Below are positions 1-32,657 of a stretch of 32,657 nt of DNA, one piece after another (the first letter of the stretch is position 1; the number at the start of each line of letters is the position of its first letter). The stretch comes from Kiritimatiellales bacterium (GTDB lineage: Bacteria > Verrucomicrobiota > Kiritimatiellia > Kiritimatiellales > Pontiellaceae). Location of the stretch: positions 1-32,657 of the forward strand of contig QKAU01000080.1 in assembly GCA_003246265.1 (NCBI GenBank), given 5' to 3'. A model generated the notes under the pieces. It worked only from the letters and a program-made list of their open reading frames with translations. It had not been told where the DNA came from and searched no databases. The position numbers and the translations under genes were made by a program.

Positions 1-432
1 CGCGGCGTCGCATGTTCACACTTTCGTGCATTGACAATGATTCTCGACTGCAGCCTCCCGTAGGAGTCTGGGCAGTGTCTCAGTCCCAGTGTTGCTGATC
101 GTCCTCTCAGACCAACTACCCGTAAGCCTTGGTGAGCCGTTACCCCACCAACTAGCTGATAGGATATGGGCTTATCCCTAAGCGACAGGATCCGAAGATT
201 CCCCGCCTTTAAAGAGGCCTCCATGCGGAGGCTGATCACATCCGGCATTAATCACCGTTTCCGGTGGCTATTCCGAACTTAGGGGCAAATTACCCATATA
301 TTACTAACCCGTTCGCCGCTCTCATGCCGTGGTTCTCTCCCGAAAGATTGAACCAAGGCAATCCCGCTCGACTTGCATGCCTAATCCACGCCGCCAACGT
401 TCGTTCTGAGCCAGGATCAAACTCTCCATCAA
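1..432 (-). rRNA. rrs: 16S ribosomal RNA, 5' part (runs off the left edge)
   Basis: The reverse complement carries the universal 16S 5' signature AGAGTTTGATCCTGGCTCAG starting at 425 and reading leftwards, then GGCGGCGTGGATTAGGCATG and the ACTCCTACGGGAGGC block near 53-67. By alignment to E. coli position 8 the mature 5' end should lie near 432, give or take a few bases. Only about the first 430 nucleotides are inside the window. The EUB338 probe site (50-67) has one change from the usual bacterial form: the RNA reads GGAGGCTGC where most bacteria have GGAGGCAGC. Planctomycete-type sequences share this change, which supports a PVC-superphylum host. Transcription comes from the promoter array at 670-1110. 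Confidence 0.97.
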
Positions 433-29297: not shown

Positions 29298-30278
29298 ATG
29301 GACTTCTGGAAAACCATTGACCGTCCCATCATCGCCCTGGCGCCGATGGAGGATGTGACCGATACCGTGCTGCGCACCCTGCTGCTGGGCCTGGCCGATC
29401 CGGAGAGCCTGCACGTCGTCATGACCGAGTTCGTCTCCACCGACGGGCTGCTCCACAAGAAGGGCCGCAGACGCGTCATTCATCGCCTCCACGTCACTAC
29501 AGAGGAACAGCGGCTATTGAGGGAGAAGCAGGTCCGCATCGTCGCCCAGATCTGGGGCAATGTACCGGAGAACTACGTGAAGGTGATCCGGGAAATCGCG
29601 GATAGCATGGAATTCGACGGTGTCGACATCAACATGGGCTGCCCGGTTCCCAAGGTGGTGCGGCGCGGCTGCTGTTCGGGCCTGATCGGCAATCCTTCGC
29701 TGGCCAAGGAGATCATCCAGGCCGCGAAGGAGGCTTCACCCCTCCCGGTATCGGTGAAGACGCGCATCGGACTGAAATCCATCGCCACCGAAGAGTGGAT
29801 CGGCCACCTGATGGAGGCCAGGCCGGCGGCGCTGACGATCCACGGCCGGACGCAGAGGCAGATGTCGGACGGCCGGGCGGACTGGAACGAGATCGCCAAA
29901 GCCGCGCGCCTGCGCGATGCGCTGGGTATCGATCTGCCGGTGCTGGGCAACGGCGACGTCCAATCAGTGGAGGAGGCGCGCGGAAAATGCGCCGAGTACG
30001 GCCTCGACGGTGCGATGATCGGACGGGGGATCTTCGAAAATCCGTGGCTGTTCGCGAAGGAGCAGCGCGAACGCTCCATCGAGGAGCGGCTCGCCCTGCT
30101 GTGGCAACATACCGAACTGTTCGACCGGGTCTGGGGCGGCACAAAGAATTTCCATCTCCTGCGGCGCTACTATTCGATCTACGCCAAGGGCTTCCCCGGC
30201 GCGGCCGACCTGCGTGCGCAACTCATGCAGACCGAATCCATCGCCGACGTGGGATCGCTGCTGGAGAAGTCGGGCTAG
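29298..30278 (+). CDS. tRNA-dihydrouridine synthase (Dus family)
   Basis: The 326-residue FMN enzyme reduces specific uridines in the tRNA D-loop. The TIM-barrel signatures are LAPMEDVTDTVLR (residues 14-26), VDINMGCPVPKVVRRG with catalytic Cys115, VSVKTRIGL with the FMN-binding Lys, LTIHGRTQRQMSDGRADW, LGNGDVQSVEEAR and GAMIGRGIFENPW, followed by the C-terminal helical RNA-binding domain. Which subfamily (A, B or C) cannot be settled by eye. It follows bioB by 42 bases. Its stop overlaps that of the convergent secreted-protein gene in the shared sequence CTAG. Confidence 0.93.
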   Translation: MDFWKTIDRPIIALAPMEDVTDTVLRTLLLGLADPESLHVVMTEFVSTDGLLHKKGRRRVIHRLHVTTEEQRLLREKQVRIVAQIWGNVPENYVKVIREIADSMEFDGVDINMGCPVPKVVRRGCCSGLIGNPSLAKEIIQAAKEASPLPVSVKTRIGLKSIATEEWIGHLMEARPAALTIHGRTQRQMSDGRADWNEIAKAARLRDALGIDLPVLGNGDVQSVEEARGKCAEYGLDGAMIGRGIFENPWLFAKEQRERSIEERLALLWQHTELFDRVWGGTKNFHLLRRYYSIYAKGFPGAADLRAQLMQTESIADVGSLLEKSG

Positions 30279-31054
30279 TCCTTCGACTTCTTTTTCCTGG
30301 CTGCCACAGGCGCGCTGCTCTTCGCCCAGGGATAGGACTTCATAACGCTGTCGGGCAAGGCTTCCTGGCGCAGCAGGACCCGCTCCTCGCCATTCTTGCC
30401 GTAGACCCGCAAGGCCATCCCGTGCACTTCGCCCTTGAGTACCCGCGCATTGGTGAATTCCGAGTTCTTCTCGTCCTTGAAGACGACGACCGGATCGGTC
30501 ATCAGCTCGAGCTTGCCGCGGGTCGCCAGCAGGGGGACCGGGAGCACGCCGTGCAGCACGCCCTGCTGGAGGCCTTCATCCTCCAATTCCTGCTCGTAGT
30601 AGATGCAGTACTCGACCTCCAGCCCCGACAGGTCGACATCGTTGTTGTTCCTCAGCTCCAGCCTGAAGCCGACCTTGTCATACGAGATTTTGCCCACCAC
30701 CTGGTTCTCCGCCGTCCCGCCACCTCGATAATTGATCGTTCCCAGCTGCTCTTCCGACCAGCTCTCCAGGCGGCGGCGGTCGATCGTGATGAGGAACTTG
30801 CTGGTGGAGCGCACGGCATCCAGCCCCCCCCAGGCGAGAATGTATTGGCGGTCCGCTTCGCTAAAGGCCCCGACGGGCACCGTGGCCTCCTGCCCGCCCT
30901 CGCGGCGGATCGTGACCAGGTTCTTGCGCCCGTCATAGCGGACGATGCTCCCGCTCACGACGCGTCCCTGCAGGTCGGTAAAATTCCGGATCTCCTGGGC
31001 ATGCCCGTTCAGCACGAACACCATCCCGGCGCAAACCGCAACCATCGCTTTCAT
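30275..31054 (-). CDS. secreted SHD1-domain protein, copy A, function unknown
   Basis: The 259-residue protein has a signal peptide (residues 1-20, cleavage likely after GHAQ). An SLA1-homology-1-like beta domain (about 22-75) contains NFTDLQGRVVSGSIVRYDGR and AFSEADRQYILAW. A second, unrecognised beta-rich domain has EYCIYYEQE and LKGEVHGMALRVYG, and a basic tail (RKKKSKD) ends it. SHD1-like domains are common in exported PVC proteins; their ligand is generally unknown. The ATG at 31054 is preferred over a GTG at 31060 because GGAGG is seven bases upstream. It is a clear paralogue of the protein at 31426-32181. The perfect palindrome GATCGTACGATC (31080-31091) lies just upstream. Confidence 0.85.
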   Translation of the reverse strand: MKAMVAVCAGMVFVLNGHAQEIRNFTDLQGRVVSGSIVRYDGRKNLVTIRREGGQEATVPVGAFSEADRQYILAWGGLDAVRSTSKFLITIDRRRLESWSEEQLGTINYRGGGTAENQVVGKISYDKVGFRLELRNNNDVDLSGLEVEYCIYYEQELEDEGLQQGVLHGVLPVPLLATRGKLELMTDPVVVFKDEKNSEFTNARVLKGEVHGMALRVYGKNGEERVLLRQEALPDSVMKSYPWAKSSAPVAARKKKSKD

Positions 31055-31079
31055 CCCCACCCCTCCAATCTCTCCGCCT

Positions 31080-31091
31080 GATCGTACGATC
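31080..31091. promoter_or_regulatory. 12-bp perfect palindrome, possible operator
   Basis: GATCGTACGATC lies 26 bases upstream of the SHD1 copy A start, between that gene and the thiE remnant. Its position suits a transcription-factor site, but no clear promoter was found next to it and it has no second copy before copy B. Confidence 0.3.
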
Positions 31092-31193
31092 GAGTCTGGT
31101 CCAGTTTTCCAGATCGACCGGCCGTCGTGAAGGAAAATGGGTTTTGAAATTTCCGCATTCCCCTCGCCCGCCGCATCGGACTATCCTGCCCCC

Positions 31194-31310
31194 ATGAAAG
31201 AACGGTTCGGCCTCTACCTGATTCTCACGGAGCCCCGGGCGGGCTATGAAACATGCGCCCGCGCGGCGGTCCAGTGCGGCGTGCGCACTCATGCGGACCG
31301 AAAGCATTAA
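31194..31310 (+). pseudogene. thiE remnant, N-terminal fragment only
   Basis: The frame of 38 codons starts MKERFGLYLILTEPRAGYET and stays alignable to the downstream thiE for 31 residues, 22 of them identical by eye (shared blocks FGLYLI, AGYE, ARAAV). After CGVR it diverges and meets TAA at 31310. All catalytic parts of ThiE (QLR-K, ND, HLGQ-D) are missing. The spacing to the minus-strand SHD1 gene resembles that of the intact copy. It is best read as the decayed half of a tandem duplication; the following 115 bases hold nothing recognisable. Confidence 0.75.
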
Positions 31311-31425
31311 CGACGTGAAGAACATCCTCGCGACCACGTAGCGATTCCTTCCAGGGAAAATCATCAGCGGGGAGAATCCATCGACACCCTGAAGGGCGTC
31401 CGCCAGCGCACAGGGAAATCCCCTT

Positions 31426-32181
31426 CTACTTATTTATCCCGACGTAAACGCTCTCCCCAGTCCACTTGAAGCAGTTGGGAAGCGATTCCGGAAGCGATAA
31501 TTCGCGCATGAGCTTTTCGCCTCCCGGCAACTCGAGGTAGGCGCGCACCCAGACGCCGTGCACCTCGCCGTGCTTAACGTTGTCCGATCCGGAGGTGTAG
31601 GACCACCCCGCATCCAGTTCCTCCCGGAAAACCTTAACCACTTGCGTTGCCAACATCTTGACGGAACGTGGCGTGAGCGATCCGGCATCGAGCGTCCCGC
31701 AGTAGACCCCTTGTTTGCAGACCACTTTACCCGCCGGTGAATCAAAGTCCTCCTGTTCATAGAATATGCAATAGGAAACCTTGACCTTTGAAAACTCCGT
31801 ATCTGAGCGATTGTCCAACGTTATTTCGTAGTGGACTTCCCTGACGGCCAGATCCTTGTTGAACCTGTGGCCACTCAAGGAGTCGTCCTCGTCACGATTG
31901 CGTTCGACCGAAATCTTGAACCGGCTTTTATTCATGAAGTCCTGGGCCCTGCTCCAGCTATCCACATACTCCTTGTCCGCGTCAGACAGCGTCGAAAGCG
32001 GAATCTTGCCCTGCCGTCCGTTTTCCATCTGCACCATGATGACCTGCTTGCGGGCATCGAAGGTCAGGATGCGCGCCGTGATCACCCGCCCCTCGGTATC
32101 CGTGAATATATGGTAGCTCTCCTCCGCCCAAGCGAACGCACAGCACATTCCGAGAATCGCGATAGCCAGTATTTTTTTCAT
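31426..32181 (-). CDS. secreted SHD1-domain protein, copy B, function unknown
   Basis: The 251-residue protein has a signal peptide (residues 1-19, MKKILAIAILGMCCAFAWA). An SHD1-like domain (about 22-76) has IFTDTEGRVITARILTFDAR and TLSDADKEYVDSW. A beta-rich C-terminal domain has SYCIFYEQED and KHGEVHGVWVRAYLELPGG. Shared blocks FTD-GRV, YCI-YEQE and GEVHG align along its whole length with the protein at 30275-31054. The ATG at 32181 is chosen because it opens the signal peptide and has GGGGAAG upstream; in-frame ATGs at 32193 and 32226 add hydrophilic residues and lack such a site. Export to the periplasm or outside is inferred. Confidence 0.85.
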   Translation of the reverse strand: MKKILAIAILGMCCAFAWAEESYHIFTDTEGRVITARILTFDARKQVIMVQMENGRQGKIPLSTLSDADKEYVDSWSRAQDFMNKSRFKISVERNRDEDDSLSGHRFNKDLAVREVHYEITLDNRSDTEFSKVKVSYCIFYEQEDFDSPAGKVVCKQGVYCGTLDAGSLTPRSVKMLATQVVKVFREELDAGWSYTSGSDNVKHGEVHGVWVRAYLELPGGEKLMRELSLPESLPNCFKWTGESVYVGINK

Positions 32182-32333
32182 ATTCTTCCCCATGGTTTTT
32201 CTCGAGCCGTAGAAGATTCCTCGCAAATCGCCTAGATGGCAAGTACTTTACAATTCATGTTTGATTTCGTAAAGATAACTTTTCATGGAAAACGCTCTCC
32301 CCTGCTGAAGCCTACCTGTACTAGGATGCCGGC

Positions 32334-32657
32334 ATGAAGGAACCTTTTGGACTCTATTTGATCGCGTCGGATCCGACGGCGGGCTACGAAGCGCTTGCCC
32401 GCGCGGCGGTGGAGTGCAAGGTCCGTTATCTACAACTGCGGATGAAGGGCTTACCGAGGGAACGGGTGCTGAAAACAGCCCGGATGTACCGGGAAATCAC
32501 GCGGAACAGCGATACCCGCTTTATCGTCAACGACGATCTCGAAACGGCGATGGCGTGCGGGGCGGACGGCCTCCATCTCGGCCAGCACGACCTTCCGCTG
32601 GCAGAGGCGCGGAGGAAATGGAACGTGCCGGGCAGGATCTTCGGCCTTTCCACCCAC
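32334..32657 (+). CDS. thiE: thiamine-phosphate synthase ThiE, N-terminal part (runs off the right edge)
   Basis: The first 108 residues are present. ThiE joins HMP diphosphate to the thiazole phosphate to make thiamine phosphate. Visible active-site blocks are YLQLRMK (32-38), FIVNDD (63-68) and GADGLHLGQHDLPLAEARR (77-94), then RIFGLSTH, matching the G-S-H loop. The ATG at 32334 has a weak AGGA upstream. It would use the pyrimidine product of ThiC, encoded 4 kb away on the other strand. The gene is divergent from SHD1 copy B with about 150 bases between. Confidence 0.92.
   Translation, partial: MKEPFGLYLIASDPTAGYEALARAAVECKVRYLQLRMKGLPRERVLKTARMYREITRNSDTRFIVNDDLETAMACGADGLHLGQHDLPLAEARRKWNVPGRIFGLSTH

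Follow-up and report, generated by a model that had tools for sequence, protein, structure and literature searches.

The right end of the window, the whole 32,657-nucleotide stretch of DNA analysed here, carries the locus dus–A–(thiE'|dus')–B–thiE, in which A and B are SHD1-type secreted proteins, thiE' is the head of a thiE and dus' is the tail of a second dus (Table 1). The window belongs to the genome of a marine bacterium of the genus Pontiella (Kiritimatiellota) that is available as a draft assembly of 81 contigs. The product of dus, the gene on the left flank, has a single orthologue apiece in 21 congeners, at 70-82% identity. The genes dus and A meet tail to tail, their stops sharing the four bases CTAG (30275-30278).

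The thiE frame that reaches the window edge continues on contig C8, whose end overlaps the window exactly over 144 bp, and the joined ThiE ORF contains no stop. Its match to ThiE (TMP-TENI, PF02581) is spread over the two contig parts, with 79.8 and 133.6 bits against a cut-off of 27 bits. On C8 thiE is followed by a tRNA-Leu(TAG), as it is in seven relatives, and this conserved neighbour supports the join. A second TMP-TENI gene lies away from the dus–SHD1–thiE locus in five congeners (G027:C10, G001:C180, G009:C235, G021:C2:815240 and G024:C1:2238752).

Table 1. Features of the dus–thiE locus, in window coordinates
Feature	Coordinates	Strand	State and evidence
dus	29298..30278	+	Intact, 326 aa; left flank of locus; Pfam Dus E=2.8e-52
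SHD1-type secreted protein A	30275..31060	-	ORF; hydrophobic N-terminal signal seen by inspection
thiE', 31-codon head of a thiE, severed at junction	31194..31286	+	Protein HMM E=3e-17
Junction	31280..31286	+	CGTGCGC fits thiE side and dus side; putative 7-nt microhomology
dus', end of a second dus (17 codons plus stop)	31288..31341	+	Shuffle test; protein HMM E=0.0025; nhmmer E=3e-5
Low-GC segment	31301..32362		GC 0.527 vs 0.624 overall; covers B and the B–thiE spacer
SHD1-type secreted protein B	31426..32193	-	ORF; predicted N-terminal domain matches Sla1 SHD1 (2hbp)
thiE, intact	32334..32657 (edge)	+	Continues on contig C8, total 208 aa; TMP-TENI E=1.7e-22 for window part

The thiE'|dus' junction

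The frame of thiE' ends at 31286, and dus', in another frame, encodes LMRTESINDVKNILATT followed by a stop, which is a Dus C-terminus; the resident dus ends in LMQTESIADVGSLLEKSG and a stop. At the nucleotide level the end of the resident dus reads ...CTGCGTGCGCAACTCATGCAGACC and the junction reads ...GGCGTGCGCACTCATGCGGACC. Compared with the Dus C-termini of the genus, the dus' piece scored 54, the maximum in 150 dinucleotide shuffles being 41, and the dus-tail DNA profile recognised it with nhmmer at the E-value listed in Table 1, the best reversed-sequence control reaching 0.3. A placement of dus' by its nearest Dus end was set aside, the piece being too short (nearest G027, 10 of 13 residues). 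The junction is real in the assembly. It joins the end of one unit (thiE') to the start of the next (dus') at 31280-31288, and the join lies at a putative microhomology that can be assigned to both sides, on reconstructed ancestral bases. The same junction is absent at this locus from all congeners examined.

A sequence-only reading of this DNA had described two SHD1-type genes on the minus strand, a thiE start and a second thiE intact to the window edge. All four pieces are present, in the order and orientation that it gave, and the rightward extension of the assembly that it proposed completes ThiE on C8. The 31-residue thiE start with 22 identical residues was recovered against the resident ThiE (22/31, tblastn E ~8e-9). 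The reading had this remnant break up by decay; instead, thiE' ends in a sharp cut at the junction, followed by the dus' tail. It had also taken an SHD1–thiE pair to be duplicated. A tandem repeat that contains an SHD1 gene and a thiE start is indeed there, but the repeated unit also includes a dus tail and is better written as dus tail–SHD1–thiE head.

The locus and its SHD1 genes across Pontiella

The arrangement dus–[0–3 SHD1]–thiE is the standard form of this locus among 27 congeners. Two SHD1 genes are found in G017, G023, G024 and G025, three in G005, G006 and G021, and none in G016, the remaining congeners having contig breaks at the locus. The single-unit arrangement that the sequence-only reading suggested looking for in relatives is common, being found in six genomes (G001, G004, G009, G019, G022 and G027). 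In relatives with a readable locus the SHD1 genes always point away from thiE and towards dus. Neither two thiE at this locus nor two close dus genes were found in any of the congeners. The Dus tree places G004 as the nearest species (94/93). In G016 (L193, G016:C23) dus and thiE adjoin directly, so that the locus is empty.

A and B are 30-32% identical. In the SHD1 tree A forms a clade with G006_2, G009 and G001, from three other species (support 98/99), with which it also shares an inserted segment in the alignment; B falls outside this clade, at a position that the tree does not resolve. Holding A and B as a clade cost 40 log-likelihood units (AU p=0.033, a moderately strong test). By these trees, A and B are not sisters and are of different ancestry, an outcome that the sequence-only reading had itself named as refuting a duplication of the pair. 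The changed roles that had been read from their divergence are not needed, since SHD1 copies evolve fast throughout the genus. The single SHD1 gene at the locus of G004 proved strongly incompatible with B (AU p=0.0002), its incompatibility with A being only borderline (p=0.052). Across the genus the copies form groups common to several species, often by position. A donor of the B unit was not found, the best relative of B being 41% identical. Two more SHD1-type genes lie side by side elsewhere in this genome (G000:C31:13412-14945, L204) and relatives hold up to 16 SHD1-type matches, which points to a large, fast-evolving family.

The SHD1 label itself holds at the level of family and fold, while A and B themselves lie below Pfam SHD1: among 18 family members the PF03983 profile matched five when E-values up to 10 were allowed (best E=1.9e-6), and it matched neither A nor B. 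A structure model of B, built from two sequences, has a mean pLDDT of 68.5, with block values of 73-92 over residues 21-90. Its SH3-like N-terminal domain matches the Sla1 SHD1 structure 2hbp (Z 8.4, rmsd 1.8, 57 residues), and residues 86-231 are modelled as an Ig-like beta-sandwich like those in GH2 enzymes and transglutaminases. A and B are probably exported binding proteins, as predicted with the hydrophobic N-terminal stretch seen by inspection. They resemble SLA1 homology domain 1 proteins (PF03983) in the predicted fold of the N-terminal domain of B and in the matching family members, but differ from them in being of a secreted type with a second, Ig-like beta-sandwich domain and in escaping detection by Pfam.

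Divergence, composition and origin of the two units

The divergence of thiE' is coding-like. It shares 26 of 31 residues with G006, G012 and G014, against the 22 shared with the resident thiE, and differs from its five nearest congeners at 6-9 sites at codon positions 1 and 2 and at 14-17 sites at position 3. On the thiE' branch, held sister to the resident thiE, 0.10 changes per site were estimated at positions 1 and 2 and 0.89 at position 3, and equal rates over codon positions were rejected (LRT 2dlnL 6.6, p=0.010). A copy that is no longer coding should change alike at all codon positions. The excess at third positions indicates that thiE' diverged from the resident gene while working and was cut recently; the pattern is strong evidence against an old copy of the resident thiE that had stopped coding, and recent self-copying appears an unlikely origin. 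It is compatible with two working thiE kept side by side for long. A placement of thiE' by tree was set aside: the best topology weakly pairs it with the resident thiE (58/75), on 93 sites, which are too few for resolution.

A break in composition lies at the junction. The low-GC segment, found as a maximal-scoring segment over 35 kb, begins 14 bp past the junction and scores 21-23 (p1 0.54-0.56), the next segments scoring 7-8. Only one segment (12-1822) scores above it, and this was set aside as a comparison case because it overlaps the 16S rRNA end of the contig, which explains at least part of its score. Positions 1-432 (-) of the window, at the left contig end, are the start of a 16S rRNA gene (Rfam RF00177); contig breaks are usual at rRNA operons. 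On a baseline of this contig and two further loci, GC3 is 0.72 in B and 0.86 in A, the latter being the norm for the contig (genes 0.75-0.92); B is only mildly unusual, as two other SHD1 genes of this genome have 0.76-0.77. Within thiE, GC3 is 0.67 in codons 1-48 and 0.83 in the rest (p=0.024 for the most favourable among many positions of the cut, which makes the step suggestive only). Taken together, the composition favours the B unit as the newcomer and a crossover inside thiE; the GC3 of the two other SHD1 genes weighs against this, as does the AT-richness of the B–thiE spacer, a frequent trait of promoters.

We hold, with modest confidence, that the locus is probably a recombination scar, the place where two dus–SHD1–thiE units with separate ancestries were fused end to end, one fragment coming from another Pontiella lineage. 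From that lineage would have come a fragment made up of dus tail, SHD1 gene and thiE head. One of its ends would have recombined by homology with the resident locus, and at the other a handful of shared bases would have linked codon 31 of one thiE to the tail of one dus. The product, dus–A–(thiE'|dus')–B–thiE, would retain a single complete thiE. Of the two directions, the likelier has a resident dus–A–thiE and an incoming dus'–B–thiE head, with a crossover in about the first 50 thiE codons; in that case thiE' would be all that is left of the original thiE at the junction, its severed head. The B unit is thus the likelier newcomer, the direction being unproven: Ala11 is common to the resident thiE and G004 and absent from thiE', which indicates the opposite direction of transfer. 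The joining of two diverged units explains the data better than decay after duplication in place, and the cross-lineage origin is the best-supported reading, not a proven one.

A donor would not be required if an ancestral dus–A–B–thiE had been duplicated in tandem between dus tail and thiE head, into dus–A–B–thiE'|dus'–A–B–thiE, with a later loss of B in the left unit and of A in the right one. The locus commonly holds two or three non-sister SHD1 genes, and the weak pairing in the best thiE tree also fits; nevertheless, we consider this history unlikely, since two precise losses are required, thiE' would have been non-coding since the duplication, which the codon-position test disfavours, and the GC break at the junction is left unexplained. 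An old duplication of the whole dus–SHD1–thiE locus, with both copies working for long before a recent deletion from the interior of the first thiE to the tail of the second dus, would account for the coding-like divergence of thiE' and for A and B having separate ancestries, and the GC3 of thiE' (0.81) is similar to that of this genome's genes. This history is distinctly improbable, as no congener shows the doubled thiE or the close pair of dus genes that it supposes and the GC difference between the units is not explained by it.

For the model of the sequence-only reading, in which one SHD1–thiE pair was duplicated within the lineage, one thiE decayed and the SHD1 genes diverged, the order and orientation of the pieces speak, but we regard it as very unlikely, because A and B are not sisters and thiE' is cut and fused to dus', with a coding-like substitution pattern, rather than decayed. 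An assembly chimera, in which the thiE'/dus' point, close to the end of the contig, would be where reads from a second Pontiella population had been attached, might be suspected from the draft state of the genome, the contig break inside thiE and the differing composition of the B unit. Assembler overlaps are much longer than about 7 bases, so that a join at ~7 shared bases is far below them; dus-tail scars of like kind occur in two other assemblies, and thiE and the tRNA-Leu continue correctly on C8. A chimera is hardly likely at all.

Homology-facilitated illegitimate recombination, for which PMC8116780 cites de Vries and Wackernagel (2002), reportedly anchors foreign DNA by homology on one side and joins it by microhomology on the other. 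The one-sided homology and microhomology join proposed for the Pontiella locus would be of this kind, but the event is read from a natural scar between two related loci and was not observed. Tandem duplications with short-repeat junctions in bacteria show the same order, unit–truncated end|truncated start–unit; in Pontiella, however, the units are not copies of each other, their SHD1 genes coming from different old lineages. The locus shows how what looks like a duplicated gene pair, one partner of which has decayed, can be a join of two diverged loci, and a scar such as thiE'|dus' helps to tell exchange between species from duplication in place.

The dusA-associated genomic islands insert at the 5' end of dusA and invariably contain an integrase (PMC4482086). 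The Pontiella locus is similar in that dus serves as the target and is repeated in part, but here it is the 3' end of dus that is repeated, and there is no integrase between the copies. An integrative island was rejected as an explanation on these grounds, the interval between dus and dus' containing only A and thiE'.

Dus tails in other species

Decayed dus tails in dus orientation were also found between SHD1 copies of G017 (L182:1859-1922, nhmmer E=5.8e-4) and G006 (L176:3306-3362, nhmmer 0.02, protein HMM 0.0037), and the three best non-genic matches of the dus-tail DNA profile are those in the window, G017 and G006. The other SHD1 gaps, besides those of this genome (G000), G006 and G017, gave no dus tail above background, and the gap scan found no thiE remnants between SHD1 copies of relatives. 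In other species, too, the locus seems to have gained SHD1 copies through similar events. As a tentative and rather doubtful generalization, the dus–thiE interval of Pontiella may be a recurrent landing place, where SHD1 genes would be exchanged between species without an integrase, as dus-tail–SHD1–thiE-head cassettes and by way of homology in the flanking genes, building arrays of unrelated SHD1 copies and leaving dus-tail scars. If the scars of G006 and G017 have the same origin, the locus would illustrate in nature how swapping between conserved flanking genes assembles arrays of secreted proteins that evolve fast. In each of the cases the tail precedes a different SHD1 group, so that the scars look like separate events.
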